The translations under genes were made by a program, and so were the position numbers. Of a DNA stretch of 54,535 bases, positions 3,096 through 49,694 are shown one piece after another. Source of the DNA: a virus. The stretch covers positions 1-54,535 of IMG/VR virus record IMGVR_UViG_3300020190_003475. One strand, written 5' to 3'. Each line of letters starts with the position of its first letter. Within the stretch, counting starts at the first letter, position 1. The notes below the pieces were generated by a model. That model saw only the letters and a list, made by a program, of their open reading frames with translations. It was not told the DNA's origin and did not search any database.

Positions 3096-3841
3096 TATAT
3101 AGACACTCAGGAACATTTGGCGATTTAATTTACAGTCTATCTGTAGTTAAAAAAATGGGTGGTGGCACATTTGCTATTCATCTTGAAAACATTGAAAAGT
3201 GTGTAGCACGATACGGATATAAACCCAACGAAGTAGATTCCGCACATCAGGGCAGATTCAAGATTGCTGATTTTGATTTGTTACGACCTTTGCTGTCCAG
3301 GCAGAGCTATATTGACCAAGTGACAGTTTGGTTAGGCGACCACGATGTTGATCTAGATCGATTTCGTGGCGTATTATTTAGAGGTTTTGAAGGTAACTAT
3401 GTTGAAGCGTATCATCGTACATTTAACCTACCATTTGAACCAGAAGTGTATAATGAAACATGGCTAGAGGCTGATGCAAAGCAAGTCGCACCTGTGGTCA
3501 TAAACAGAACATTTAGATACAGATGTCCTGAAGGTACAGGTACCTGGCAAGGCCTGCTAGAGCAAGCAAACATATCTCAGACAGGTGTGTTTGTTGGCAC
3601 TCAAGACGAGCATGAAGATTTTGAAAAAAGCACTGGCTTTCGTGTACAATATTACTGTGTTCAAGATTTCAAAGAGCTGGCGGATGTGATCGCTGGTGCA
3701 GATTTGTTCATGGGCAACCAGAGTGCTGCATACAGTTTAGCAATGGGTCTAGGCAAAAGCTCGGTATTAGAAACAATTAAGATTAAACCACTAGCAAACA
3801 ATGAGTGTTATTTTCCAAGATCAAACTGCCAATACTTCTAA
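3092..3841 (+). CDS. GT9-fold glycosyltransferase-like protein
   Basis: A 249-residue protein. The N-terminal GTFGDLIYSLSVVKK loop has the Gly-Asp pattern of GT9 enzymes, and a late ADLFMGNQSAAYSLAMGLG segment is equivalent to the conserved substrate loop, with Asn-Gln in place of the usual Ser-Gly-Pro. It may therefore be a diverged or altered-specificity member. Start ATG overlaps the previous stop by 4 bases, and its end overlaps the kinase gene by 41 bases, so translation is probably coupled. Confidence 0.65.
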   Translation: MIYRHSGTFGDLIYSLSVVKKMGGGTFAIHLENIEKCVARYGYKPNEVDSAHQGRFKIADFDLLRPLLSRQSYIDQVTVWLGDHDVDLDRFRGVLFRGFEGNYVEAYHRTFNLPFEPEVYNETWLEADAKQVAPVVINRTFRYRCPEGTGTWQGLLEQANISQTGVFVGTQDEHEDFEKSTGFRVQYYCVQDFKELADVIAGADLFMGNQSAAYSLAMGLGKSSVLETIKIKPLANNECYFPRSNCQYF

Positions 3842-4574
3842 GGTACGAATATTACTTGTAGGTGACAACGGTATTGATCAATATCAATATGGTACAGTTA
3901 CAAGAATTAGTCCTGAGGCTCCTGTGCCGGTAGTCAACTACACACATACAGAAATTAGACCTGGCATGGCCGCTAATGTAAAAGAGAATTTACAACGACT
4001 AGGATGCGAAGTAACTTTTGTACACGGCATAAAAACATGTATAAAGACTCGAGTAATTGATTCAAGGACCAAGCAACATCTAGTTAGAATAGATCAAGAT
4101 TCACCTAGTCGTGCCGTAAAAATTGACTACAACAACTTAGACCAGTATAATTGTATTATAGTAAGTGATTATAACAAAGGATCAGTAGAGTATGAAACCG
4201 TCGAAGAGCTTCGCCGGCGTTATTTGGGTCCAATATTTGTTGATACGAAGAAAAGCGACCTGGCCCGCTTCCAAGGTTGTTTCGTTAAAATTAATCAAGT
4301 GGAATATGAAGCGGCTCGAACATATCCTGCCGATCTTATTGTTACCCTTGGTAGAGATGGCGTAAAGTATAAAGAACATCGGTTTTCTACTCCACAAGTA
4401 GAGGCGTTTGATGTATGCGGGGCAGGCGATACATTTTTGTCTGCTCTCGCATACAACTACGTTTTATCAAATGACATCGCCGTGGCAATCAAATTTGCAG
4501 CTCGTGCAGCCAGTGTCACTGTTCAGCACATCGGAGTATACAGTCCCACCTTAGCGGAGATTGAGCAAGCATGA
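3801..4574 (+). CDS. hldE (kinase domain): D-glycero-beta-D-manno-heptose-7-phosphate kinase-like protein (PfkB family)
   Basis: A 257-residue protein equivalent to the N-terminal kinase domain of HldE/RfaE, which is about 310-320 residues in bacteria, so it is shortened. Seen: VRILLVGDNGIDQYQYG near residue 15, a substrate loop ISPEAPVPVV at about 36-45, and the PfkB signature DVCGAGDTF at 204-212 with the catalytic Asp at about 210. It should phosphorylate heptose-7-phosphate at C1. The nucleotidyltransferase half of HldE is encoded separately two genes downstream, as in split HldA/HldC systems. Confidence 0.82.
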   Translation: MSVIFQDQTANTSKVRILLVGDNGIDQYQYGTVTRISPEAPVPVVNYTHTEIRPGMAANVKENLQRLGCEVTFVHGIKTCIKTRVIDSRTKQHLVRIDQDSPSRAVKIDYNNLDQYNCIIVSDYNKGSVEYETVEELRRRYLGPIFVDTKKSDLARFQGCFVKINQVEYEAARTYPADLIVTLGRDGVKYKEHRFSTPQVEAFDVCGAGDTFLSALAYNYVLSNDIAVAIKFAARAASVTVQHIGVYSPTLAEIEQA

Positions 4575-4939
4575 CAAGATTATCAGGAAGAGTTGAAAAA
4601 GGTTGGGGGTTTGAAGAAATCTGGGCCACCAACGATAGATACTGTGGTAAGATGATGCACTTCAATATCGGTGCCAGATTTAGTATGCACTTCCATAGAG
4701 AAAAAGAAGAAACTTGGTACATACAATCTGGAAAATTCATTGTAAAATATATTGATACAAATACTGCTGCACAGATTGAACAAGAATTGAATGTGGGCGA
4801 TACTTGGCACAATCCACCTTGTATGCCACATCAATTAATTTGCCTAGAACAAGGCACAGTAGTAGAAGTTTCCACACCAGATTCCGTAGAGGACAATTAT
4901 CGTGTACAGCCCGGGGATAGCCAGAAGAGTAATAGTTAA
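4571..4939 (+). CDS. Cupin-domain protein (mannose-6-phosphate isomerase type II-like)
   Basis: A 122-residue single cupin. The metal-binding pattern is visible as MHFHREKEETWYI (His, His and Glu ligands), with a second conserved part at NPPCMPHQL. Small cupins of this type sit in glycan clusters as sugar isomerases or epimerases. The gene begins 4 bases inside the kinase gene and ends 38 bases inside the nucleotidyltransferase gene. The substrate is unknown. It could provide a sugar-phosphate isomerisation step for the same pathway, but this is inference. Confidence 0.75.
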   Translation: MTRLSGRVEKGWGFEEIWATNDRYCGKMMHFNIGARFSMHFHREKEETWYIQSGKFIVKYIDTNTAAQIEQELNVGDTWHNPPCMPHQLICLEQGTVVEVSTPDSVEDNYRVQPGDSQKSNS

Positions 4940-5321
4940 CGGGACCTTTGACATCCTGCATCGTGGGCACATTGAAATGCTCAACTTTGCAAAAAGTCAA
5001 GGAACCTATTTGTTGGTTGCAATAGATTCAGATCGTGAGGTGAGAGAGTTAAAAGGTGAACAGCGTCCTGTTAATAAACAGGAAGACCGCAAGTTTGCAT
5101 TGGACAATCTTAAATGTGTAGATGCTGTGTGGATTTTTGATACACAGGAAGAACTGGCACATATTTGTAAATTGTATAAACCTAGTTTAATGGTCAAAGG
5201 TTCAGACTATCGTGGTAAAAAAATTACCGGTGCTGAATACTGCGACAGTATTAAATATTACGATCTAGTACCCAATTATTCAACGAGTAAAATAATTGAA
5301 AATATTAATAACCGGAAGTAG
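4902..5321 (+). CDS. hldE (nucleotidyltransferase domain): Heptose-1-phosphate adenylyltransferase-like protein
   Basis: A 139-residue cytidylyltransferase-fold protein matching the C-terminal half of HldE. The HxGH nucleotide-binding motif is within GTFDILHRGH at 14-23. KGSDYRGKKITGAE and the terminal STSKIIENI also fit the family. It should transfer AMP to heptose-1-phosphate to give ADP-heptose. The GTG start at 4902 is chosen because no ATG occurs before the motif and a GAGG sequence lies upstream. It overlaps both neighbours. Confidence 0.82.
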   Translation: MYSPGIARRVIVNGTFDILHRGHIEMLNFAKSQGTYLLVAIDSDREVRELKGEQRPVNKQEDRKFALDNLKCVDAVWIFDTQEELAHICKLYKPSLMVKGSDYRGKKITGAEYCDSIKYYDLVPNYSTSKIIENINNRK

Positions 5322-6090
5322 AGGCTTTATTGGTAGCCACGCTGTAAGTCGTTGGCATAAAATTGGCGGCCATGAAATTGTCACATACGAATGGGACGAA
5401 AATCTATTACCGCGTATCGAAGGCCTGGATTGGGTTTTTCATTTTGGAGCCATAAGCAGTACCACTGAGCGTGATGTTGACAAAGTGATGCGTCAGAATT
5501 ATGACTTTAGCGTTTGGCTATATGAGGAGTGCAGACGACATGATGTCAATCTTCAATGGAGCAGCTCGGCTAGCGTGTATGGCATGGGCCGAGACTTTAC
5601 AGAGACCGCACCAGTTGATCCTAGAAGTCCATACGCATGGAGTAAATATCTATTCGAACACTACATCGAACACCATCCGACGCATGTTCGGTGCCAGGGA
5701 TTTAGATACTTTAATGTATATGGTGCGAACGAAACCCATAAAGGTAATCAAGCCAGCCCGCACTATCAGTTTGCTGTACAAGCTCAATCCACTGGTATTA
5801 TAAAAATATTCGAAGGCAGCGACCATTTTCAAAGAGACTTTGTTCCTGTTGAGCGTTTGTTAGATGTTCAATACGAATTTGTCCGGCGCAAAATTGATGA
5901 AAACGGTGTATGGAACATTGGTACAGGACAAGCACAATCATTCGCCGACATTGCGCGAGACAAAGCCAATCAATATGGAGCACTGATTCAGATAATACCT
6001 TTTCCTGAACATCTAGCGCATAGCTATCAAAAGTATACCTGTGCAGACTTAACAAAATTGCAACAAACTTTTGGCAAATACACGGGTTGA
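5296..6090 (+). CDS. hldD: ADP-L-glycero-D-manno-heptose 6-epimerase-like protein
   Basis: A 264-residue extended short-chain dehydrogenase. The NAD-binding GSRGFIG loop is at 7-13, SSTTE at 54-58 matches HldD closely, and the catalytic YxxxK pair is Tyr113/Lys117 in YAWSKYLFEHY. FRYFNVYGANETHKG and FEGSDHFQRDFVPV are also specific to HldD. The usual length is about 310, so the C-terminus is short. It should convert the D,D to the L,D epimer of ADP-heptose. The start is TTG at 5296, inside the previous gene. No GmhA or GmhB was seen here, so the host or upstream phage genes must supply them. Confidence 0.85.
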   Translation: MKILITGSRGFIGSHAVSRWHKIGGHEIVTYEWDENLLPRIEGLDWVFHFGAISSTTERDVDKVMRQNYDFSVWLYEECRRHDVNLQWSSSASVYGMGRDFTETAPVDPRSPYAWSKYLFEHYIEHHPTHVRCQGFRYFNVYGANETHKGNQASPHYQFAVQAQSTGIIKIFEGSDHFQRDFVPVERLLDVQYEFVRRKIDENGVWNIGTGQAQSFADIARDKANQYGALIQIIPFPEHLAHSYQKYTCADLTKLQQTFGKYTG

Positions 6091-6115
6091 CACATAACTA
6101 TATTTTGCATATACT
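6087..6115 (+). promoter_or_regulatory. Sigma70-type promoter, TTGACA-17-TATACT
   Basis: A perfect -35 (6087-6092) and a near-perfect -10 (6110-6115) are separated by 17 bp. The -35 overlaps the stop of hldD. The predicted start at about 6122 lies next to a hairpin at 6123-6142. It should drive the gene at 6167. Confidence 0.85.
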
Positions 6116-6122
6116 AAGATTC

Positions 6123-6142
6123 AGTAACTAATTCCAGTTACT
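6123..6142 (+). other. 5'-UTR stem-loop at predicted transcription start
   Basis: AGTAACT (6123-6129) pairs perfectly with AGTTACT (6136-6142) around a six-base loop. It begins within one base of the predicted +1 of the 6087 promoter. Such 5'-terminal hairpins can protect an mRNA from 5'-end-dependent decay. Confidence 0.7.
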
Positions 6143-6166
6143 ATTTACAATTGGAGAATTACCATC

Positions 6167-7330
6167 ATGTCAGCCCGGGTATCGCGGCCACTGATTGATG
6201 TTGTTAACGACGCTCGTCGTGACATCAAAGCGGCCCTCAAACTTTCAGACAAGCAATTTAATTCAATGATGCAGCAAATTAGAGCAAGAATGACTGCTCT
6301 AAATTTGAATTTTGCACGAGGCATGCATTATGAAGATGTTAATAACGTTTGGTTGGACTATGAAGTTCAACGCAACGTTATTATCAAGCACTTGATTGAC
6401 ATCATTAAAAAATTTGATATTAGAATTATTGAACCTGCTGCTACCGCCAACTTTATAGGCAAGGCCCTAACAAAAGAACCTTGGCGTCAAGACAAGTTGT
6501 TTGCATATAATGGTCAGCACCGTTGCGTTTTGTTAAGCCTACTAGGCTACACTAAAGTTCCGGTTATTATTAACGATACCGAAGATCTTGCGTTTCCTTC
6601 AGTTGCGTTTATCATCAACAACCACAGTGGTATCAAGAAAGTTGGAAAACCAGACCTGCACCAAAACTGGTTGTATCAACACAAGCTGGGTTTGAGCACG
6701 CAGGAAACTGAACTGGCTCGAAATCTACAAGATGCATTTGATAATGCCCGTGTACAATTAATTGAATCAACCAAAGCCAGAAACATCAACGATTATTGGT
6801 TTAGTCATTTTGACTATGCCTACAAATCTGCCAGCGTTGATAAAACGGCTGCTACTACTCGACAAATTCTTGACGCAATCACAATTGCTTGGCCAGCTGA
6901 TCAAGAAATTGATCAGGGCGTGTTTATTGGACTCTATTATATGAACAGTATTGTTAAAAGTTTAAACAAAAAGATGCCAAAGAATTGGATGCAGGATATC
7001 ACTGAAACTTGTGCAGTAAGTTTTTCGTCTAGTCACGACTGCCATACCGCTGCCAAGCGTCAATGGGACTTTTTTGTTGGCAGTGCTTGGTCTGCCCCGC
7101 AAGGAATGTTTAAGTTTATGCGAGAAGTGTACCTTATTAACGGTGGTAAATTAGCAATACCTAGTGAAAACTTAGACATCGGTGTACTGGGTAAGACCTG
7201 GTGCGAACCAAATCTTATCCCACAAGTGTCCATAGACTGTTTTAAATTAACGGGCGCCGACAAGACTTTTTTTGCAATACAAAACGGCACAACAATCGAA
7301 GGCAAAAAGTTTATGGAGATGAAGGCATAA
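6167..7330 (+). CDS. Hypothetical protein with DGQHR/ParB-like motif
   Basis: A 387-residue protein. The part around residues 105-135 (FAYNGQHRCVLLSLLGYTKVPVII) has the Gly-Gln-His-Arg motif and following helix of ParB/sulfiredoxin-fold and DGQHR-domain proteins. That fold binds nucleotides or cuts DNA in some members, but no further catalytic motif is seen here. It is the first gene after a consensus sigma70 promoter, with GGAG at 6153-6156, so it is probably an early gene. Function unknown. Confidence 0.65.
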   Translation: MSARVSRPLIDVVNDARRDIKAALKLSDKQFNSMMQQIRARMTALNLNFARGMHYEDVNNVWLDYEVQRNVIIKHLIDIIKKFDIRIIEPAATANFIGKALTKEPWRQDKLFAYNGQHRCVLLSLLGYTKVPVIINDTEDLAFPSVAFIINNHSGIKKVGKPDLHQNWLYQHKLGLSTQETELARNLQDAFDNARVQLIESTKARNINDYWFSHFDYAYKSASVDKTAATTRQILDAITIAWPADQEIDQGVFIGLYYMNSIVKSLNKKMPKNWMQDITETCAVSFSSSHDCHTAAKRQWDFFVGSAWSAPQGMFKFMREVYLINGGKLAIPSENLDIGVLGKTWCEPNLIPQVSIDCFKLTGADKTFFAIQNGTTIEGKKFMEMKA

Positions 7331-20240: not shown

Positions 20241-20942
20241 ATGATCATACTATACACTTTTTTAGTCACACACATCACCATAGACTGTGTGACGCTATAC
20301 CTACATCGCAGTCAGGCACATAGAGCAGTGGAATTTCATCCCATGGTCAGTCATGCCATGCGTTTTTGGTTATGGTTAACTACAGGAATGGTCACTCGAC
20401 AGTGGGTGGCGGTTCATAGAAAGCATCATAGATTTTGCGAACAAGCAGAAGATCCACATAGTCCAGTACACTATGGTATCTGGCATGTTTTACTTAAAGG
20501 AGCATTGTTGTATCATGAGGCAAGCAAAGATAAAGACATGGTTAATACATACGGTGTTGGCACTCCTAATGATTGGATTGAGCATAAGTTATACACGCCT
20601 CACTCCAGACTTGGCATTACTATTCTCCTTGTGTTCAACATCTTACTATTCGGTTGGGTGGGCGCCATAATATGGGGTATACAAATGATCTGGATACCCT
20701 TCTGGGCAGCAGGAGTAATTAACGGTATTGGACATTTTTGGGGATATCGCAACGGTGAGACCAGAGACCAAAGTCGTAATATCGTGCCCATTGGTATATT
20801 AATTGGCGGCGAGGAATTACACAATAATCATCATTTGGATCCAGCTAGTCCTCGTTTAAGCCGTCGGTGGTTTGAATTTGATATTGGTTGGTTTTATATT
20901 CGAGTATTACAATCATTAAGATTGGCCGCTGTTAAAAATTAA
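20241..20942 (+). CDS. Fatty-acid desaturase (delta-9 type)
   Basis: A 233-residue membrane di-iron desaturase. The three histidine boxes are HRSQAH (HxxxxH), HRKHH (HxxHH) and HNNHH (HxxHH), and two hydrophobic hairpins lie between them. GHFWGYRNGETRDQSRN precedes the last box as in acyl-CoA/acyl-lipid desaturases. It should add a double bond to membrane fatty acids. It is shorter than bacterial members, lacking an N-terminal span. Desaturase genes are known from marine T4-like phages. It follows the fibre gene. Confidence 0.85.
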   Translation: MIILYTFLVTHITIDCVTLYLHRSQAHRAVEFHPMVSHAMRFWLWLTTGMVTRQWVAVHRKHHRFCEQAEDPHSPVHYGIWHVLLKGALLYHEASKDKDMVNTYGVGTPNDWIEHKLYTPHSRLGITILLVFNILLFGWVGAIIWGIQMIWIPFWAAGVINGIGHFWGYRNGETRDQSRNIVPIGILIGGEELHNNHHLDPASPRLSRRWFEFDIGWFYIRVLQSLRLAAVKN

Positions 20943-30672: not shown

Positions 30673-31059
30673 ATGGCTTATTCAGGTCAGGTTTTGGATC
30701 ATTATGAAAATCCAAGAAATGTTGGAAAACTAGATAAAACAGACCCAAGCGTAGGCACTGGTTTAGTTGGTGCGCCAGCATGCGGCGATGTTTTGCAACT
30801 TCAAATTCGAGTAGAAGACAATGTTATCACCGATGCCAAATTTAAAACATACGGTTGCGGTTCGGCTATAGCAAGCTCGTCGTTGGTCACTACGTGGCTT
30901 AAAGGAAAAAGTCTTGATGAAGCGGATTCAATTAAGAATTCGGACATTGCGGAAGAACTCGCGTTACCTCCGGTTAAAATCCACTGTAGTATTTTAGCCG
31001 AAGATGCTATCAAAGCAGCACTGGCAGACTATCGATCAAAAAATGATACAGCTAACTGA
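30673..31059 (+). CDS. iscU: Iron-sulfur cluster scaffold IscU
   Basis: A full-length 128-residue IscU. The three cluster-binding Cys are present at 37 (PACGD), 62 (YGCGS) and 105 (IHCSI), with Asp39 and His104. The HscA-binding LPPVK motif is at 98-102. The sequence is very close to proteobacterial IscU. It assembles [2Fe-2S] and [4Fe-4S] clusters with host IscS and HscA/HscB, none of which is in the window. AAGGAG at 30661-30666 provides the ribosome site. Confidence 0.95.
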   Translation: MAYSGQVLDHYENPRNVGKLDKTDPSVGTGLVGAPACGDVLQLQIRVEDNVITDAKFKTYGCGSAIASSSLVTTWLKGKSLDEADSIKNSDIAEELALPPVKIHCSILAEDAIKAALADYRSKNDTAN

Positions 31060-31363
31060 ACTGGCAGCAAAAAAAGTAAGACAACAGCTTGACCGTAGAG
31101 GTCATGGTGCTGGTATTCTCATTGGAGTAAGAACCACAGGCTGTTCTGGACTGGCATACAAATTAGAATACATTGACAAACCCACAGATGAACAGGTCAA
31201 GTATGAATCAAATGGTGTTAGTGTATTTGTCAATCCCAAGGATCTTCCTTACATTGATGGCATGACCATGGATTACAAACGTCAAGGTCTTAACGAAGGC
31301 TTTGATTTTATAAACAGCAAGGAACGTGATCGCTGCGGCTGCGGCGAAAGCTTCCGTATATAA
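31043..31363 (+). CDS. iscA: A-type Fe-S carrier IscA/ErpA-like
   Basis: A 106-residue A-type carrier with all three ligands: Cys34 in TTGCSGLAY and Cys98/Cys100 in RCGCGESF. It delivers clusters or iron from the scaffold to apo-proteins. The ATG at 31043 overlaps the iscU end by 17 bases; an upstream start at 31004 would overlap by 56 bases and add non-family sequence. Sequence alone does not separate IscA from ErpA or SufA. Confidence 0.9.
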   Translation: MIQLTELAAKKVRQQLDRRGHGAGILIGVRTTGCSGLAYKLEYIDKPTDEQVKYESNGVSVFVNPKDLPYIDGMTMDYKRQGLNEGFDFINSKERDRCGCGESFRI

Positions 31364-32382
31364 TGTTGTTATATTATTCTCAAAAATTCTTCTTTGAACG
31401 ATGGTTTAAGGATGACTACGTAGATATAAAAAAATTCGAAATAACGCATGATTTAGACGAATTCATATCTTCAAACAAGAAATTTAAAGTATCATGTATT
31501 TTTCAGTGCGGAAGTGAATTTCCATCTATATTATACAATTTAAATACACATTCTACCTTAGTTTTTTATTTTGCAGATCATCCAAATTGGACAAATCATA
31601 TCAACCTTGAATTGTTTCGCAATGTTATATGGGTCTTACCAGGAAAATACTGTAAAACATATGAAACAAAAAATTTGTTTTGGAACGCTTGGATGCGGGA
31701 GATAGCTGCTACTTATAATAATTTAGGAATAAACAACCTTTTAAATGATATTTCACCCAATCAACCAAAGTCTAAATATTTTGATTGTTTGTTGGGATCT
31801 AATAGACCTCCTAGAGATCTTATATACGAGTTGATACCAAGGGAATTACTTGAAGATAAAATAATATTTACTTACGCAGGACATAATAAAAATCCTACTT
31901 ATTGGTATGATGATATCCAAAATAGATTTGATGCTACAGCTTTGTACAATGATGTAGAAATAGTTAACTATAAGTATGTTCCTGTACAACTTTACACACA
32001 AACTGCTTACACAATGGTTTCAGAAACTGTCAGTCAAAACGATCTTATTCTTGTAAGCGAAAAGATTGCAAGACCAATTTTGGCCAAACGATTGTTTGTA
32101 GTTTTTTCAAGTCCTGGTTATCTCAATTTTTTAAAAGAATTAGGTTTTCAAACTTTTAATATTATAATAGACGAGACCTATGATTCTATAGTCAACGAAA
32201 AGCAAAGATTTACAGCAGTAATGAAACAAGTTGTTTTTTTATGTAATCAAGATCAAGATAAAATACTAAATCAAATACAATCAATTGTTGAGCACAATTT
32301 TAATTTATTAACAAGTACCAATTATGATAAATTGTTAGCTGCTCAAATTAATAAAATTTTAGATGATTATTCAAAAATTTGA
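31363..32382 (+). CDS. Glycosyltransferase-like hypothetical protein
   Basis: A 339-residue protein. Its last third shares a layout with the protein at 1172-2242: SEKIARPI, then FLKELGFQTFNIIIDETYD. GSNRPPRDLIYELIPRELL near residue 145 is like the donor-binding core of exostosin/fucosyltransferase-like proteins. The base composition is more AT-rich than its neighbours, and it sits between Fe-S and nuclease genes, so it may be a later insertion. Confidence 0.55.
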   Translation: MLLYYSQKFFFERWFKDDYVDIKKFEITHDLDEFISSNKKFKVSCIFQCGSEFPSILYNLNTHSTLVFYFADHPNWTNHINLELFRNVIWVLPGKYCKTYETKNLFWNAWMREIAATYNNLGINNLLNDISPNQPKSKYFDCLLGSNRPPRDLIYELIPRELLEDKIIFTYAGHNKNPTYWYDDIQNRFDATALYNDVEIVNYKYVPVQLYTQTAYTMVSETVSQNDLILVSEKIARPILAKRLFVVFSSPGYLNFLKELGFQTFNIIIDETYDSIVNEKQRFTAVMKQVVFLCNQDQDKILNQIQSIVEHNFNLLTSTNYDKLLAAQINKILDDYSKI

Positions 32383-33061
32383 CTACAAGCCCCTTAACAG
32401 GACCACTGTTGAGGGCAAGCGACACTATTGTCTTCCTGATGGTAGCAAGGTACCCAGTGTAACAACCATACTGGATCGTACTAAGCCCGAAGAAGCCCGA
32501 CAAGCATTGCGCGAGTGGAAAGATCGTGTAGGTCATGAACGAGCGCAACAGATCACAACCGAAGCTGCCAATCGTGGTACCAGAATGCATACCTATCTAG
32601 AACGGTATATCAAGCACGATGACTTAGGCGATTTTCCTGCTAATCCCTATGCTCAACCCTCGTGGTTTATGGCAGCACAAGTTATATTGGAAGGATTAGG
32701 AAATGTTGATGAATATTGGGGTTGCGAGGTGCCTTTATACTATTCTGGGCTTTATGCTGGTACTACTGACTGTGTGGGCGTTTGGCGAGGACAGCCTGCG
32801 ATCATGGATTTTAAACAAACGAACAAGCCTAAGAAACGCGAATGGATCGACGATTATTTTTTACAGCTCGCGGCATATGCGGCGGCTCACAACGGCACAC
32901 ACGGAACAAGCATTACTACAGGTGTCATTCTTATGTGTGCTCTACCGGCTGATGAAAATTCAACCCCCCAGTATCAAGAATTTGTGCTAGAACCCAAGGA
33001 TTTCCAGTATTGGAGCGATCAATGGATGCGTAGAGTCGAACTGTACTACCTAACAAGCTAA
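32363..33061 (+). CDS. PD-(D/E)XK exonuclease, RecB-like
   Basis: A 232-residue nuclease. RGTRMHTYLE near 71-80, Glu122, Asp136 in GTTDCVGV, DFKQTNK with Asp149 and Lys151, and the helix FLQLAAYA form the RecB-type PD-(D/E)XK active site. Such phage enzymes act in recombination or degrade host DNA. Starts inside the previous gene by 20 bases. Confidence 0.78.
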   Translation: MIIQKFDYKPLNRTTVEGKRHYCLPDGSKVPSVTTILDRTKPEEARQALREWKDRVGHERAQQITTEAANRGTRMHTYLERYIKHDDLGDFPANPYAQPSWFMAAQVILEGLGNVDEYWGCEVPLYYSGLYAGTTDCVGVWRGQPAIMDFKQTNKPKKREWIDDYFLQLAAYAAAHNGTHGTSITTGVILMCALPADENSTPQYQEFVLEPKDFQYWSDQWMRRVELYYLTS

Positions 33062-33085: not shown

Positions 33086-34456
33086 ATGGCCGTTACGCAG
33101 ATAAGCAGAATTCAACATCGCAGGGGATTGGAGCAAGATCTTCCGCAACTTGCCTCAGCTGAGCTTGGCTGGAGCGTAGATACAAGACAATTATATATTG
33201 GTAATGGCACTCTGGCAGAAGGCGCCCCAATTGTGGGCATCACGCGGATTTTAACAGAACATGACATTTATGATTTAACTTCAAACGTTGCATTTTCTTC
33301 GTACACTTTTGTAGGCAATACTGCAGGTTATACAGCACAAACCGGTGCAAGTATAATGTCGCCTACTGTAAGGACCTACCAACAAAAATTAGATGACATT
33401 GTAAATGTAAAAGATTTTGGAGCAGTTGGTGATGGTACTACAGATGATACAGTAGCAATTAATCGTGCAATACAACAGATTTACCAATCAACAGTCAGTC
33501 CGACTGAACCTCGAGCCAGACGAACAATTTATTTTCCTGGCGGAACATACGCTATTAACAGCACCCTTTTAATTCCTCCATACACCAAACTGGTGGGTGA
33601 TGGATTATCTAGTACCGTAATAAAACAATCAATGGGCAATCAGTCTGTAGCTACAACATGCGACAGTTCTTTTCAGACAGCAGCAAGTATTGGAAGTGGT
33701 TCAGCTGTTTATCCTATAGATATAGAAGTTAACGGCATAAATTTCTTTAACAGTAATGCAAGCATTGTAACTCCGCTGGTTGTGATTGACAGTGCTAGTA
33801 ATGTAAAAATAACAAACAGCAAGTTTGTTTCAAATGCAAGCGCAGGTTTTTTTCCTAACATTGTTTCGGTTGCAAGTTCAGTAATTGGATCTAGTAAACT
33901 TACATTTGATACCTGTGTGTTTGTTGGTGGCGGCAACAGTATTGCTTTAACCGGTGCATCAATTACATCAGTAAGAGTTATGAACAGTAGTTTTACTGAT
34001 ATGAGCAATACAGCAGCTCATCTTGGTACTAGTACCGGGTTCGTAAGCATAGGCAATTACATAGGTGGAGCAACAAGCTTTGTTTCAAATGGAAGTAATT
34101 TTAATTTTGAACTTGGCAACTTTTACGACAGTGACAACAGAGTGAATTCAGGTTTATATTTAGGCAACTGTGTAATAAATCCTAGCCAACGATTTACTAT
34201 CACAACAACACCATCTGTTTTTGTCACGGCTGGCAACGCAGCAGGCATTGTTGATTATCAACTGAAAAGTAATAGTAATGTTAGAATAGGATCATTGACA
34301 CTGGCCACACAAGGCTCTACACTGACTTATACTGACAGCTACGTTGAAACGCCCACCGGAGTGGGTGCTAATATATCAGCTAATAACGACTGCATTCTTG
34401 TTTCTGTAAGCAGTGGAATCGCAACATATCAATTCACATATAGACAGTTCATTTGA
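33086..34456 (+). CDS. Tail spike with pectate-lyase-like beta-helix
   Basis: A 456-residue protein. The N-terminus (RIQHRRGLEQDLPQLASAEL) is a virion-attachment module like that of many phage fibres. From residue about 108, VNVKDFGAVGDGTTDDTVAIN starts a pectate-lyase-3-type right-handed beta-helix with YFPGGTYAIN. The helix rungs continue to a beta-rich C-terminus. It is likely a receptor-binding or glycan-degrading spike. Confidence 0.8.
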   Translation: MAVTQISRIQHRRGLEQDLPQLASAELGWSVDTRQLYIGNGTLAEGAPIVGITRILTEHDIYDLTSNVAFSSYTFVGNTAGYTAQTGASIMSPTVRTYQQKLDDIVNVKDFGAVGDGTTDDTVAINRAIQQIYQSTVSPTEPRARRTIYFPGGTYAINSTLLIPPYTKLVGDGLSSTVIKQSMGNQSVATTCDSSFQTAASIGSGSAVYPIDIEVNGINFFNSNASIVTPLVVIDSASNVKITNSKFVSNASAGFFPNIVSVASSVIGSSKLTFDTCVFVGGGNSIALTGASITSVRVMNSSFTDMSNTAAHLGTSTGFVSIGNYIGGATSFVSNGSNFNFELGNFYDSDNRVNSGLYLGNCVINPSQRFTITTTPSVFVTAGNAAGIVDYQLKSNSNVRIGSLTLATQGSTLTYTDSYVETPTGVGANISANNDCILVSVSSGIATYQFTYRQFI

Positions 34457-34905
34457 TGTTCAAATTATCAACCAGCGAGCGATTGCGGCGGTGGAAGTCT
34501 GTTAGGCAAAATTTCGACAATCTATCTTTAGTTGAAGCCATACATACGACTTTGGAATTATGGCATACTTGTCCTTTCAGTCCTTTTTACTTGGATTATG
34601 ACTCGCCATCCAATTGGCCAGATCCATGGCAGTTGTTACAAGAAAATACCTATTGTGACCTTGCTAAAGTGTTAGGAATCGTGTATACTTTACATCTTTC
34701 AGGTCATAAATCATTCTTAGAACCGGAAATTAGGATATATTACGATCGAAAGACCAGGTACAATTACCATATAGCATACTTGTGTGGCGGAAAATATGTT
34801 CTTAATTTGATTGAGGACGAGATTGTAAATAAAGAACACATTAATCAAGAATTAAAATTAAAATATCGCTACACAGCGGTTGACTTAAAATTAGAACAAT
34901 ACTAG
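34456..34905 (+). CDS. Hypothetical protein
   Basis: A 149-residue protein with a Trp/Pro-rich middle (SNWPDPWQLLQENTYCDLAKVLG). The ATG at 34456 overlaps the stop of the spike gene. It precedes nrdA by 8 bases. Function unknown. Confidence 0.6.
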   Translation: MFKLSTSERLRRWKSVRQNFDNLSLVEAIHTTLELWHTCPFSPFYLDYDSPSNWPDPWQLLQENTYCDLAKVLGIVYTLHLSGHKSFLEPEIRIYYDRKTRYNYHIAYLCGGKYVLNLIEDEIVNKEHINQELKLKYRYTAVDLKLEQY

Positions 34906-34913
34906 AGGCGTTA

Positions 34914-37217
34914 ATGACACAAATTCAAGTTACTAAAAGAGACGGACGTAAAGAATTACTAGATTTAGAAAAACTACACCGAGTTGTATTTTGGGCAACC
35001 GAAGGAATCACTGGTGTAAGCGCAAGCGAAGTAGAGATAAAAAGCCACATACAGTTTTATAACGGAATAAAAACAGCAGATATCCAAGAAACACTTATTA
35101 AATCTGCTGCTGATCTTATAAGCGAAGAAACTCCAAATTATCAATATGTAGCAGGAAGACTAATTAATTATCATTTACGCAAACAGGTATATGGTGATTA
35201 CAGTCCGTGGCCGTTGATTAAATTGGTACAGCAAAATGTGGAATCGGATTTTTATGATCAAGGTCTAATAGACGCATATACTGCTAGCGAATGGGATCGT
35301 CTGAACAGTTTTGTTCACCATGAAAGAGATAAACATTTTACTTATGTGGCCATGGAGCAATGGCGCGGCAAGTATCTAGTACAAAATAGAGTTACCAACG
35401 AAATATACGAAACTCCACAAGTGGCATATATACTGATAGCAGCTACACTGTTTCAAACGTATCCCCAAGAAACACGATTACAATGGATCAAGGACTACTA
35501 CGATGCTATCAGTTTACATGATATCAGTTTGCCTACTCCTGTCATGGCCGGTGTTCGCACACCGCAAAAGCAATTCTCTAGCTGTGTGCTTATTGAAACA
35601 GATGACAGTCTTGACAGTATCAATGCCACTACTAGCAGTATTGTCAAGTACGTCAGCCAAAAAGCCGGAATTGGAATTGGAGCAGGTCGAATACGAGCAC
35701 TTGGCAGCCCAATACGAAACGGAGATGCTTACCACACCGGGGTTATACCTTTTTACAAGTTGTTCCAAAGCGCAACGCGGAGTTGTAGCCAAGGGGGTGT
35801 ACGCAATGGCGCCGCTACACTGTACTACCCAATCTGGCACCTTGAGATCGAGGACCTGATTGTATTAAAGAACAACAAAGGCACAGAAGATAACCGTGTG
35901 CGCCATATGGATTACGGCGTGCAATTTAACAAGTTGATGTATGAAAGACTAATTACAGGCGGCGACATTACCTGTTTTAGTCCCAATGATGTACCTGAGC
36001 TGTACTCTGCTTTTTTCAACGATCAGGATCGATTCAAAGAGCTTTATGAGCGAGCAGAGCGTAATACCAAGCTGAGAAAGAAAACTTTCAAGGCTAGTGA
36101 TTTGTTTAGTAGATTCATGCAGGAACGCAAGGATACGGGAAGAATATATTTGCAGAATGTTGATCATGCCAATACCCACTCGCCGTTTGACGAAGCTGTG
36201 GCACCCATCAAGATGAGTAATCTTTGCGCGGAAATAGATTTACCAACTGTACCGTTACGAGACGTCAACGACGAGGATGGTAGGATCGCCCTGTGTACTC
36301 TATCAGCGATCAATTGGGGCAATGTAAAAAGCCCACATGACTTCGAGAAGATGTGTAGGTTGGCGGTAAGAGGATTGGATGCTTTATTAAGTTATCAAAA
36401 CTATCCAATTCGTGCAGCACAATTGGCTACGGAAGAATTTAGACCCTTGGGCATTGGTATTATCAATTTTGCCTACTTCTTGGCCAAAAATGATGTCAGT
36501 TATAGTGATCCTAAGGCATTGGCCTTGGTTGACGAGTATGCAGAAGCTTGGTCTTATTATTTGATCAAGACTTCTGCAGATCTCGCTGAAGAGCAAGGTG
36601 CTTGTACTCGTTGGCAAGATCTAAAGAGTGCAAAAGGGGTATTACCAATTGATACACGTAAGCGCGAGGTAGATGAATTAGTTCCATATACAGAACGGAT
36701 GCCATGGCAATCGCTACGCGAACAGATTCAGCGTACAGGTCAGCGTAACGCTACACTAATGGCACTAATGCCTGCAGAAACATCTGCACAAATTTCAAAT
36801 GCCACTAATGGTATAGAGCCACCACGATCATGTGTATCCGTGAAGCAAAGTAAACACGGTGCGTTAAGGCAAGTGGTTCCTGAATATCGTAGATTAAAAA
36901 ACAAGTATGAGTTACTTTGGGATCAGATCAGTCCCGAAGGTTATCTCAAAATTTGTGCGGTATTGCAAAAGTATATTGATCAAGGAATAAGCGTAAACAC
37001 CAGTTATAATCCACAACACTACGACGACGAGAAGATTCCTATGAGCGAAATGCTACAGCATTTATTAATGTGTTACAAATATGGATTAAAACAACTATAT
37101 TATTTTAATACATTTGATGGACAAGGTGAAGTAAACATAGACAAACTAGTTGAATTTCGACAAGTTGAAGAACAAGAATATACAAGTCAAGAAGACTGTG
37201 ATAGTTGCGTAATCTAG
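34914..37217 (+). CDS. nrdA: Ribonucleoside-diphosphate reductase alpha subunit, class Ia
   Basis: A full-length 767-residue alpha subunit. An ATP-cone starts at residue 1 ([16 protein letters not shown]). Catalytic-domain segments include [10 protein letters not shown] (active-site Cys), NLCAEIDLP (radical-site Cys with Glu) and [19 protein letters not shown]. The C-terminus is QEDCDSCVI with the redox-active CxxC pair. It reduces ribonucleotides to deoxyribonucleotides with NrdB. It is followed directly by isocitrate lyase and then nrdB, an unusual order. Confidence 0.95.
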
Positions 37218-37225
37218 GAAAAAAT

Positions 37226-38431
37226 ATGAAAAAAAGAAATTACAGTTTTGATACTGTAAGAAAATTGCAGGGATCTATTAGAGTAGACCATACCTTGGCC
37301 AGACTAGGCGCAGATAAGTTACGCACCCTGTTACAAAACGAACCTTACATCAATACACTAGGTGCCTATAATGGTCAACAGGCTGTACAACATGCCAAGG
37401 CAGGCCTAAAAGCAATTTATCTAAGCGGCTGGCAAGTTGCAGCAGCTAACAATACCGCAAATACTACCTATCCGGATCAAAGTTTGTATCCGGTAGATAG
37501 TGTGCCTCGAGTTGTACAGGGTATAAACAATGCTTTCCGTCGTGCAGATCAAATTGACTTTAGTGAAGGTCGAACAGATGTGGATTATTTCTTACCTATT
37601 GTGGCAGACGCTGAAGCAGGATTTGGTGGCGCACTCAATGCATATGAACTCATGATGGCCATGATTGAAGCAGGTGCCGCAGGTGTACACTTTGAAGATC
37701 AACTGAGCAGCGAAAAGAAGTGCGGGCATCTTGGAGGCAAGGTATTGATTCCAACCAGCCAGGCCATACGCAATCTAAATGCTGCAAGACTGGCCGCAGA
37801 TGTAGCCGGTGTGGATACCGTGATTATGGCTCGTACAGATGCAGAAGCGGCCACGCTGATTACATCAGATCATGATCCATTAGATAAGGATTTTATTGTA
37901 CATGAACGAACAGAAGAAGGCTTCTTCAAATTTCAAAATGGAATTGAGGCCTGTATCGCCAGAGGATTGGCCTATGCGCCGTATGCGGACCTACTCTGGT
38001 TTGAAACGAGCATGCCGGATATTAAGCAGGCGAAAAAATTTGCCGATGCTATTCACAGTGTTTATCCTGATCAAATGCTTGCTTATAACTGCTCTCCTAG
38101 TTTTAATTGGAGAAAGTTCCTGAGCGAAGAAGAATGCGAGACCTTTCAACGTGAACTTGGTGCATTAGGATACCGGTTTCAGTTTATTACACTAGCTGGA
38201 TTCCACAGTGTTAATCTTGCAACCTTTGAGCTGGCAGAGGCATACCGGCAACGTGGTATGGCTGGATATTCAGAAATGCAGGAGCGCGAGTTTGCAGCAC
38301 AGGATCGTGGATTTACAACGGTAAAACATCAACGAGAAGTTGGCGTTGGTTATTTTGATTTAATTAGCGAAGCTGTAGGTGCAAAGAGCACAGCGGCCAT
38401 GGCACACAGCACAGAGAAGGATCAATTTTAA
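37226..38431 (+). CDS. aceA: Isocitrate lyase
   Basis: A 401-residue isocitrate lyase with an intact active site: KKCGHLGG at 164-171 (catalytic Cys166), [10 protein letters not shown] at 67-76, [10 protein letters not shown] near 126, [16 protein letters not shown] and LAGFHS. All catalytic and substrate-binding segments of the family are present, at near-normal length (E. coli 434). It cleaves isocitrate to glyoxylate and succinate. The ATG at 37226 follows AGGAA. It lies between nrdA and nrdB and overlaps the nrdB start by one base, so it must be co-expressed with the reductase. No malate synthase is in the window. Confidence 0.95.
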
Positions 38432-39558
38432 TGAGCGTATTTAATATTAATAATAAGAACAAACACACCGAAGCATTGGCCTTTTTAGATGAGTCAGGCG
38501 CACAACCTATTCAAAGATACGACACACTAAAATATAGACAATTTGACAAATTAACAGATAAACAATTAGGTTTCTTTTGGCGACCAGAAGAAGTTGATGT
38601 ACTTCGAGACAGCAAGGATTTCAAAGAACTAACAGAACATGAACAACATATTTTTACAAGCAATCTTAAGCGACAGATCCTATTGGATAGTGTTCAAGGT
38701 CGTAGTCCTAACCTTGCTTTTCTTCCCGTCGCTACTATTCCTGAGCTGGAAACTTGGATACAAACTTGGGCCTTTAATGAAACGATTCATAGCCGTAGCT
38801 ATACTCATATTATCAGGAACGTTTATAGTGACCCTAGCATTATATTTGATGAGCTCACGGACATAAAAGAAATTGTAGACTGTGCCCGAGACATTAGCAA
38901 ATATTATGATGATTTAATCAAATCGGTGCAATACTACAATCTATTAGGGGTAGGAGAACATACCGTTAACGGAGAAGCCGTCACGGTTGATATGTATGAA
39001 CTCAAAAAGAAATTGTGGTTGTGTTTGAATAGTGTCAATGCACTTGAAGGTATTAGATTTTATGTCAGCTTTGCTTGCTCATGGGCCTTTGCTGAACTGA
39101 AGAAAATGGAAGGCAATGCCAAGATTATCAAATTAATTGCGCGAGACGAAAATGTTCATTTAGGGTCAACGCAGACCCTTCTCAAATTGTTGCCACAGGA
39201 TGATCCTTCTTATGCTTCTATAAAAGAAGAAACTCGTGCAGAATGCAATCAAATGTTTTTAGCCGCCGCAGCACAAGAAAAAGCCTGGGCACATTATTTG
39301 TTTCAAAACGGATCCATGATTGGGCTTAATCAACAATTATTGTGTCACTATGTAGATTGGTTGACCTGCAAGCGCATGACAGCAGTAGGACTAGACTGTG
39401 GAATGAAACCAGGATCAAATCCCTTACCATGGACAGCCAAATGGATTGCCGGCGCCGAAGTGCAAGTTGCTCCACAAGAAACAGAAATTTCAAGTTATGT
39501 AATTGGTGGCACGAAACAAGATGTTGATAATAATACATTTCGAGGATTTAGTTTATAA
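38431..39558 (+). CDS. nrdB: Ribonucleoside-diphosphate reductase beta subunit
   Basis: A 375-residue class Ia beta subunit. Iron ligands are Asp86, Glu117, His120, Glu206, Glu240 and His243, and the radical Tyr is Tyr124 in ETIHSRSY. Length matches E. coli NrdB (376). The C-terminus (NNTFRGFSL) should dock on NrdA. Begins in the stop of aceA (TAATG). Confidence 0.95.
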
Positions 39559-40381: not shown

Positions 40382-40624
40382 ATGATTACTATCTATTCAA
40401 AAAATAATTGCCCATTTTGTGATAGAGCAAAACAATTGTTAGAAAGCAAAGGCGTCAAATACAATGAAATTAACATAGAGTATGACCCAGAATCGCGGCA
40501 GATGCTAGTAGATAAAGGTCTACGAAGTGTGCCACAGATATTTCATGGATATGAACTTATTCCAGGCGGCTTCGATGGACTTCAAAAACAACCAAATGAA
40601 TTTTTTGAAAAGGTAAAAAATTAA
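40382..40624 (+). CDS. Glutaredoxin
   Basis: An 80-residue glutaredoxin with the CPFC active site at 11-14 (KNNCPFCDRA), the cis-Pro segment SVPQIF and a GGFDGL glutathione-binding loop. It should supply electrons to NrdA for each catalytic round. Overlaps the next gene by one base. AGGAAAAG lies upstream. Confidence 0.92.
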   Translation: MITIYSKNNCPFCDRAKQLLESKGVKYNEINIEYDPESRQMLVDKGLRSVPQIFHGYELIPGGFDGLQKQPNEFFEKVKN

Positions 40625-47807: not shown

Positions 47808-49694
47808 ATGAGTACTATCATTGGTATTGATCTTGGTACCACCAATAGCTGCGTAGCAGTTGTCGAAAACGGAATCCCTAAAATAATTGAAAATTCAGAA
47901 GGCGCACGTACTACGCCCAGCATTGTGGCCTATACCTCAGACGAAGTTCTGGTAGGCGCTGGCGCCAAACGTCAGGCTGTAACCAATCCCAAGAACACTA
48001 TCTATGCTGCCAAGCGACTGATCGGACGCAAGTTCATGGAGCAGGCTGTACAAAAAGACATCAATCTCATGCCCTATGAAATCATGGAGAGCAAGAACGG
48101 TGATGCTTGGGTACAGGCCAACGGCCAAGAACTGGCGCCTCCGCAAATCTCAGCTGAAGTGCTACGCAAGATGAAAAAGACCGCTGAAGACTATCTTGGG
48201 CACGAAGTAACACGAGCAGTAATTACAGTCCCTGCATATTTCAATGATAGCCAGCGTCAGGCCACCAAAGATGCGGGTGCTATTGCTGGACTTGAGGTAT
48301 TACGTATAATCAACGAGCCAACGGCAGCAGCCCTGGCATATGGAGCAGACAAGAGTGACAAAAAAGACCGTAAAATTGCTGTGTATGATCTTGGTGGCGG
48401 TACCTTTGATATATCTATTATCGACATCGCTGATGTGGATGGTGATAAACAATTCGAAGTACTTAGCACCAATGGGGATACATTCCTAGGAGGCGAAGAT
48501 TTTGATCAACGCATTATGGATTACCTTATTACTGAATTTAAGAAGGAATCTGGAGTTAATCTCGGCCGAGACGTAATGGCGCTACAGCGACTAAAAGAAG
48601 CTGCCGAGCGTACCAAGATTGAGTTGTCCAACAACACACAAACAGATGTAAACTTACCTTACATCACTGCTGATGCCACTGGTCCAAAACATCTTAACAT
48701 TAAAATTACTCGAGCCAAATTAGAAAGTCTAGTTGATGATCTAATTCAGCGTACCATCGAACCATGCCGTACAGCAATGCAAGATGCTGGAGTAACTGCC
48801 GGCGATATAGATGAGATTATTTTAGTTGGTGGCCAAACACGTATGCCCAAAGTGCAAGAAGCGGTTGAACAGTTATTCGGACGAGCACCACGTCGTGATG
48901 TTAATCCAGATGAAGCAGTAGCAGCCGGAGCAGCAGTACAAGGTGCTGTACTAGGTGGTGATCGTAAAGATGTGCTATTACTTGATGTTACCCCACTGAG
49001 CCTAGGTATTGAAACCATGGGCGGAGTGATGACCAAACTAATACCAAAGAATACAACTATTCCTACCAAGCATAGTCAAGTGTTCAGCACAGCTGAAGAC
49101 AATCAGCCTGCAGTTACTATCAAAGTCTATCAAGGTGAACGTGAACTAGTACAGCACAACAAACTGCTAGGCGAATTTAATTTAGAAGGTATCGATCCTG
49201 CACCTAGAGGTATGCCCCAAATTGAAGTTGTTCTAGATGTAGATGCAAATGGCATTCTTAAAGTAAGTGCTCGAGACAAAAAAACTGGCAAAGAAAATCG
49301 GATTACCATTAAATCTGATAGTGGTCTAAGTCAAGAACAGATTGAGGCGATGATTCGCGATGCTGAAACAAATGCCGCTGCGGATCGAAAGCAACTAGAG
49401 CTCATTGAAACTCGTAACCAAGCGGATTCAGTGATCCACCAAGTAAGAACTGATCTGAAAGAAGTTGGGGGCAAACTCGCAGAAGATCAGACGAAGACAA
49501 TAAACGATAAAATAAGTGAACTAGAACAAGCCATTGCAGGCACAGACCGAGAAGCAATTACAACAAAATTGACTGAATTGTTTGTTGCCTCAAATGCAAT
49601 CAACGAAGCAAAACAGCCGTCAACTACAGAGCAATCTGTAAAGCCCACTGCAGATGACAATGTAGTAGATGCTGAGTTTACAGAAAAGCCGTAA
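47808..49694 (+). CDS. dnaK: Molecular chaperone DnaK (Hsp70)
   Basis: A full-length 628-residue Hsp70. The ATPase domain has [13 protein letters not shown] at 4-16, [12 protein letters not shown], and LVGGQTRMP. The substrate-binding domain follows ([17 protein letters not shown] linker start), then a helical lid and a C-terminus ending [10 protein letters not shown], which is the conserved DnaK tail. Very close to betaproteobacterial DnaK by eye. DnaJ and GrpE are not in the window, so it would use host co-chaperones. It may fold virion proteins. Confidence 0.95.

Follow-up and report, generated by a model that had tools for sequence, protein, structure and literature searches.

Isocitrate lyase (ICL) is already known as a viral enzyme. 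Ocean viromes contain viral aceA and aceB (PMC4053976), and the 179-kb genome TARA_ERS478052_N000008, which has T4-like structural genes, contains an aceBA operon (PMC5332604). ICL is also encoded by ice-shelf viruses (PMC10721903). Viruses from Qiangyong proglacial-lake sediment have aceA and nrdA listed as auxiliary metabolic genes of non-host origin; the accessible part of that report names both genes, as found here, and does not state whether they are adjacent (PMC12783922). The gap between nrdA and nrdB, which encode the two subunits of class Ia ribonucleotide reductase, is occupied in phage T4. The gene there, mobE, is a promoterless cassette with overlapping codons that is transcribed from upstream promoters (PMC2988022).

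We found that a 54,535-base virus record, itself a genome fragment (the whole stretch analyzed, referred to below as the window) contains a complete aceA between nrdA and nrdB. The initial annotation had described a 401-residue ICL with an intact KKCGH active site and a one-base overlap with nrdB, and our analysis confirmed this description and the gene positions. The relevant features of the window are as follows.

20241-20942: fatty-acid desaturase (PF00487), same family as the desaturase that adjoins aceA in other loci
30673-31363: NifU/IscU-like and IscA-like Fe-S assembly genes, open reading frames overlapping by about 55 bases
32363-33061, + strand: PD-(D/E)XK-nuclease-like gene, conserved on the upstream side of the nrd locus (Pfam score slightly under the curated cut-off)
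34453-34905, + strand: conserved hypothetical gene immediately 5' of nrdA (family c8, 34 loci)
34914-37217, + strand: nrdA, class Ia ribonucleotide reductase alpha subunit of the T4-like type, 767 aa (PRK09103.1)
37215-37225, + strand: nrdA stop codon TAG and Shine-Dalgarno-like AGGA ahead of aceA, 8-nt spacer (sequence, junction comparison)
37226-38431, + strand: aceA, phage-type ICL, 401 aa, ATG start (PRK15063.1)
38429-38433, + strand: TAATG, the aceA stop and nrdB start with a 1-base overlap; AAGGA lies upstream, inside aceA (sequence)
38431-39558, + strand: nrdB, class Ia ribonucleotide reductase beta subunit, 375 aa (PRK09101.1)
40382-40624, + strand: nrdC-like glutaredoxin, conserved in the downstream part of the nrd locus (family present in 57 aceA loci)

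All three central genes are full length and score above the cut-offs of curated equivalog models. NrdA has the ATP cone and barrel domains and matched PRK09103.1 with 1180 bits; the nearest NrdA from an isolated phage is 61% identical. NrdB matched PRK09101.1 with 533 bits. An alternative in-frame TTG at 37205 would add seven residues to the ICL. Promoter and terminator scans of the nrdA-aceA-nrdB operon gave counts like those of shuffled sequences. Elsewhere, the window encodes a T4-like baseplate wedge protein, a UvsW-like helicase and a DnaB-like helicase, and its first 25 kb had no nucleotide match among deposited phages. The window also encodes a nearly full-length Hsp70/DnaK (47808-49694; 628 aa; PF00012, 855 bits).

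Like the ICLs of the ocean viromes (PMC4053976) and of TARA_ERS478052_N000008 (PMC5332604), the aceA in the window is an auxiliary metabolic gene: it is in a genuine phage genome and has conserved phage genes as flanks in viral contigs. In contrast to those ICLs, which are paired with malate synthase and for which no nrd context is described, it stands alone and inside an nrd operon. Among deposited phage genomes, the nearest ICL (64% identity) is from phage C48C1 (OQ984149, Kyanoviridae), where CDS0055 (OQ984149.1, L001 12001-13242) is annotated as 'hypothetical protein' and is an isocitrate lyase. The C48C1 gene is about 28 kb from its nrdA, whereas that of the window is between nrdA and nrdB. 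The T4 gene mobE shares the promoterless position in the gap but is a selfish nuclease and not a metabolic enzyme (PMC2988022). Our literature searches, in which subscription journals were thinly covered, found no paper describing nrdA-aceA-nrdB, in agreement with the initial annotation, whose author knew of no such phage system. As far as we searched, the nrd operon is a new context for a known kind of viral gene.

The arrangement itself proved to be common in uncultivated phages, contrary to the rarity that had been implied. Scanning IMG/VR viral contigs with the window ICL gave 186 contigs, and we analyzed the best 80 of these, all at least 85% identical. The order was nrdA-aceA-nrdB in 50 of the best 80 loci and nrdA-nrdB-aceA in 7; a few others were cut by contig ends. 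Because the 50 loci came from 35 IMG data sets (counted from contig names) with identical order, an assembly chimera is excluded. With dozens of related metagenomic viruses sharing it, the arrangement is a real, long-kept trait and not an assembly error. In one locus (L006, 3703-6870), nrdA is split by a 235-aa GIY-YIG-like open reading frame, a homing-type insertion within the reductase gene.

The aceA loci fall into two nrd alleles, one similar to that of the window (at least 84% identity) and one divergent (40-49%). In both groups, the identity of aceA is 85-92%, except for one contig identical to the window. Synonymous sites are near saturation between the allele groups, which excludes recent transfer of aceA between nrd types and points to ancient shared inheritance under constraint. 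Comparison of the window aceA with its relatives gave a dN/dS of 0.04-0.05, which together with the near-saturated synonymous sites indicates that aceA is old and constrained, and its GC3 is the same as that of the phage genes. Among long contigs of the window group that hold both genes, aceA was inside the nrd locus in 18 of 25 (binomial 3e-17 relative to random placement, with contigs counted as independent despite their kinship). In contrast, none of 10 long contigs with the other, C48C1-like group of phage ICLs had aceA linked to nrd.

We found that the gap between nrdA and nrdB is a general and recurrent cargo site. In close relatives that lack aceA, nrdA and nrdB are separated by 13-16 nt, indicating that aceA is a clean insertion of a coding sequence. 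We also sampled 160 loci using nrdB as the seed, which avoids the bias of seeding with aceA. The gap was empty in 69 of the 160 and contained other cargo in 65 (41%). It contained aceA in 9, and in 4 more contigs that were cut off aceA preceded nrdB (9 to 13 of 160, ~8% with the cut-off contigs). The other cargo, named partly by Pfam and for the remainder by reading of the sequences, included class II aldolase, IscA/IscU, methyltransferases, iron superoxide dismutase (FeSOD), a DadA-like dehydrogenase, an aminotransferase, and HNH or GIY-YIG nuclease genes. The aceA insertion does not match a homing-endonuclease-type mobile cassette: no nuclease gene was present in the gap among the open reading frames of the window, and only a few relatives have one there.

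Several results indicate that the enzyme is an intact ICL (EC 4.1.3.1) of the prokaryotic type. It matched the NCBIfam equivalog PRK15063.1 with 684 bits (cut-off 562; E 7e-206) and the Pfam ICL model with an E value of 1e-104. Methylisocitrate lyase or PEP mutase is rejected, as the prpB models gave only 92-110 bits against cut-offs of about 353. Homology to many crystallized ICLs extends over the full length, with 58-63% identity to prokaryotic ones; at the N-terminus, longer bacterial ICLs have 20-33 residues that the phage protein does not have. In alignments, S67, G68, W69, D84, D128, E130, H155, E157, K164-H168 (residues 164-168 are the KKCGH signature), R203, E260, N288, S290, S292 and T322 are invariant among phage and bacterial ICLs. 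We take these to be the metal-binding, substrate-binding and catalytic residues of known ICL structures. An AlphaFold2 model made from a shallow alignment was of moderate confidence (pLDDT 74, pTM 0.78). All 50 Foldseek matches listed for it were ICLs (query-normalized TM 0.71-0.90), and the top match was the E. coli AceA model (TM 0.90, rmsd 3.3). The catalytic loop (162-170) and the C-terminus were badly placed. ICL subunits exchange their C-terminal helices, so this misplacement is expected in a monomer model. We predict that the phage ICL is very likely enzymatically active.

The initial annotation had proposed an aceA tree to find the donor. The tree placed window-type ICLs in one clade (support 100/99) and C48C1-type phage ICLs in a clade with eight sequences (seven distinct) from small-genome gammaproteobacteria (100/100). 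Both phage-ICL clades together were separate from 25 other bacterial ICLs (100/99). The cellular members, probably marine and SAR86-like, have aceBA operons wherever the contig shows the flanks (L133, from a MED656 MAG, 3400-6203; L483-L489). They have the short ICL, and seven genomes related to L133 have the same ICL type, mostly with aceB alongside. We considered whether L133 is a misbinned virus, and this is excluded because its aceBA operon is among cellular genes; L482 does look viral, with aceA adjoining an alternative oxidase and a phage family. The MED656-type aceA differs from that of the window in being cellular, adjoining malate synthase, and grouping with the C48C1-like branch. Exact phage ICL peptides matched 28 stretches in bacterial genomes, none of which encodes an ICL; the survey of bacterial genomes with generic motifs covered the matches listed. 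The tree thus found cellular relatives of the phage enzyme, in a few aceBA operons. Because phage and cellular genes share a clade, transfer between them is a candidate explanation, and its direction could be either phage to cell or cell to phage.

None of 49 ICL-bearing viral records, many of them fragments, had a malate synthase gene (PF01274), and hence none had a complete glyoxylate shunt (aceA and aceB). The window record, itself a fragment, was left out of this set, and a record 100% identical to it over the locus (L002) was included. Since these phages lack malate synthase, the host must complete the shunt. On balance, we lean toward a model in which a promoterless aceA, coexpressed with the nrd genes, opens the glyoxylate branch of the host and saves carbon for nucleotides. 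In this model, aceA would have entered the nrdA-nrdB gap of a T4-like myovirus as a coding sequence with no promoter of its own, a landing place explained by the recurrent cargo site. It would share a transcript with the reductase genes, and its translation would be coupled to that of nrdB. Given the clean insertion and the precedent of mobE, which is promoterless in the same gap, coexpression is very plausible. During infection, the phage ICL would split host isocitrate into glyoxylate and succinate, and host enzymes would take up the glyoxylate, either by malate synthase or by transamination to glycine. The shunt would avoid both steps at which the TCA cycle loses CO2, and carbon would return as C4 acids. 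Oxaloacetate could then supply aspartate and pyrimidines, and PEP could supply ribose, along with some glycine, during phage dNTP synthesis. In Pseudoalteromonas infected by phage HP1, host aceA and aceB were the top-induced TCA-cycle genes (about threefold; PMC7082346), an independent hint that glyoxylate flux helps infection.

A role in nucleotide supply had been suggested in the initial annotation. Our results support its basis: a complete, constrained ICL that is very probably cotranscribed with the reductase genes and tied to nrd (18 of 25 contigs) well beyond random placement. Location alone is not proof, because unrelated genes fill the same gap; linkage to nrd may mean merely that this is a good site for early or middle expression. 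The unlinked aceA of the C48C1-like relatives also counts against it. Isocitrate dehydrogenase is a source of NADPH in many bacteria and ICL competes with it, a competition that could work against supply of the reductase. The initial annotation had further suggested that glyoxylate can become glycine, a purine precursor. In this route, glycine would enter purine rings and provide folate one-carbon units for dNTPs, with succinate as a by-product. The absence of malate synthase fits, as do genes near aceA in particular loci: serine hydroxymethyltransferase (SHMT) is 8 nt downstream in L066, and in L073 (9219-13077) aceA is followed by a PaaA/PaaC-family (phenylacetate/BoxB-like) oxygenase, a class II aldolase, an SGNH-like gene and then SHMT. 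A class IV aminotransferase (L043 alone) or a DadA-like amino-acid dehydrogenase (L050 alone) lies between aceA and nrdB, and ThyX is near aceA in two C48C1-like loci. However, SHMT was in 2 of 49 ICL records and 0 of 46 controls (p = 0.5), no glyoxylate aminotransferase is a regular neighbor of aceA, and elsewhere ICL is beside a desaturase or an alternative oxidase. Serine is in any case the usual source of glycine in most hosts. Malate synthase is dispensable in Acinetobacter oleivorans, and there lactate dehydrogenase reportedly converts glyoxylate to oxalate and not to glycine (PMC6779741). We consider the glycine route possible but unlikely, and our results do not support it in the form given in the initial annotation.

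The other neighbors of aceA bring in respiration and iron. An alternative oxidase (PF01786) is within 1.5 kb of aceA in 17 C48C1-like loci (e.g., L230 2789-3364), some of which also have cytochrome c, an FAD/NAD-binding (flavin) oxidoreductase or peroxiredoxin nearby. IscU and IscA genes are between nrdA and aceA in L038, L041 and L060, with IscA alone in L048, and the window has both genes outside the gap. Iron limitation induces the glyoxylate shunt in marine bacteria (PMC11069385). The ICL could therefore route carbon through succinate and succinate dehydrogenase, skipping NADH-yielding steps and the iron-rich Complex I, which would keep infected cells energized in stress or low iron. We think this quite improbable: in the window lineage, the immediate neighbors of aceA are nucleotide genes and not oxidases, and the frequency of IscU did not differ significantly. 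IscU was in 16 of 27 ICL-containing and 8 of 22 ICL-lacking phages (p = 0.15). In about 15 window-group loci a fatty-acid desaturase adjoins aceA instead of nrd genes, and its co-occurrence with ICL was likewise not significant (15/27 compared to 7/22). These neighbors also allow a broader conjecture, a long shot in our estimation: a phage program would repeatedly couple ICL to diiron enzymes that depend on O2 (class Ia NrdB, fatty-acid desaturase, alternative oxidase, phenylacetate/BoxB-like oxygenase) and to Fe-S assembly genes, rewiring respiration and iron use of the host. If so, the linkage to nrd would be one instance of this program. Finally, the gap might be a hotspot for insertions that homing endonucleases and recombination keep open, with aceA having a function unrelated to the reductase. 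The contents of the gap, nuclease genes, methyltransferases, aldolases and FeSOD among them, and mobE in the same site are consistent with this. On the other side, aceA directly follows nrdB within the operon in 7 further loci. A useless passenger is ruled out by the strong purifying selection on aceA and by its long co-inheritance with nrdA and nrdB, and we regard a link to location only as very unlikely.

Our results indicate that the phage-type ICL family is present in hundreds of IMG/VR contigs, linked to dNTP genes in one large branch and located beside respiratory or lipid enzymes in others. The nrd-aceA locus is a widespread operon context for viral carbon metabolism, undescribed as far as we searched. 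ICL acts at the branch point of the glyoxylate shunt, and because it is encoded together with the reductase, the question of where phage DNA obtains its carbon becomes directly testable by isotope tracing.
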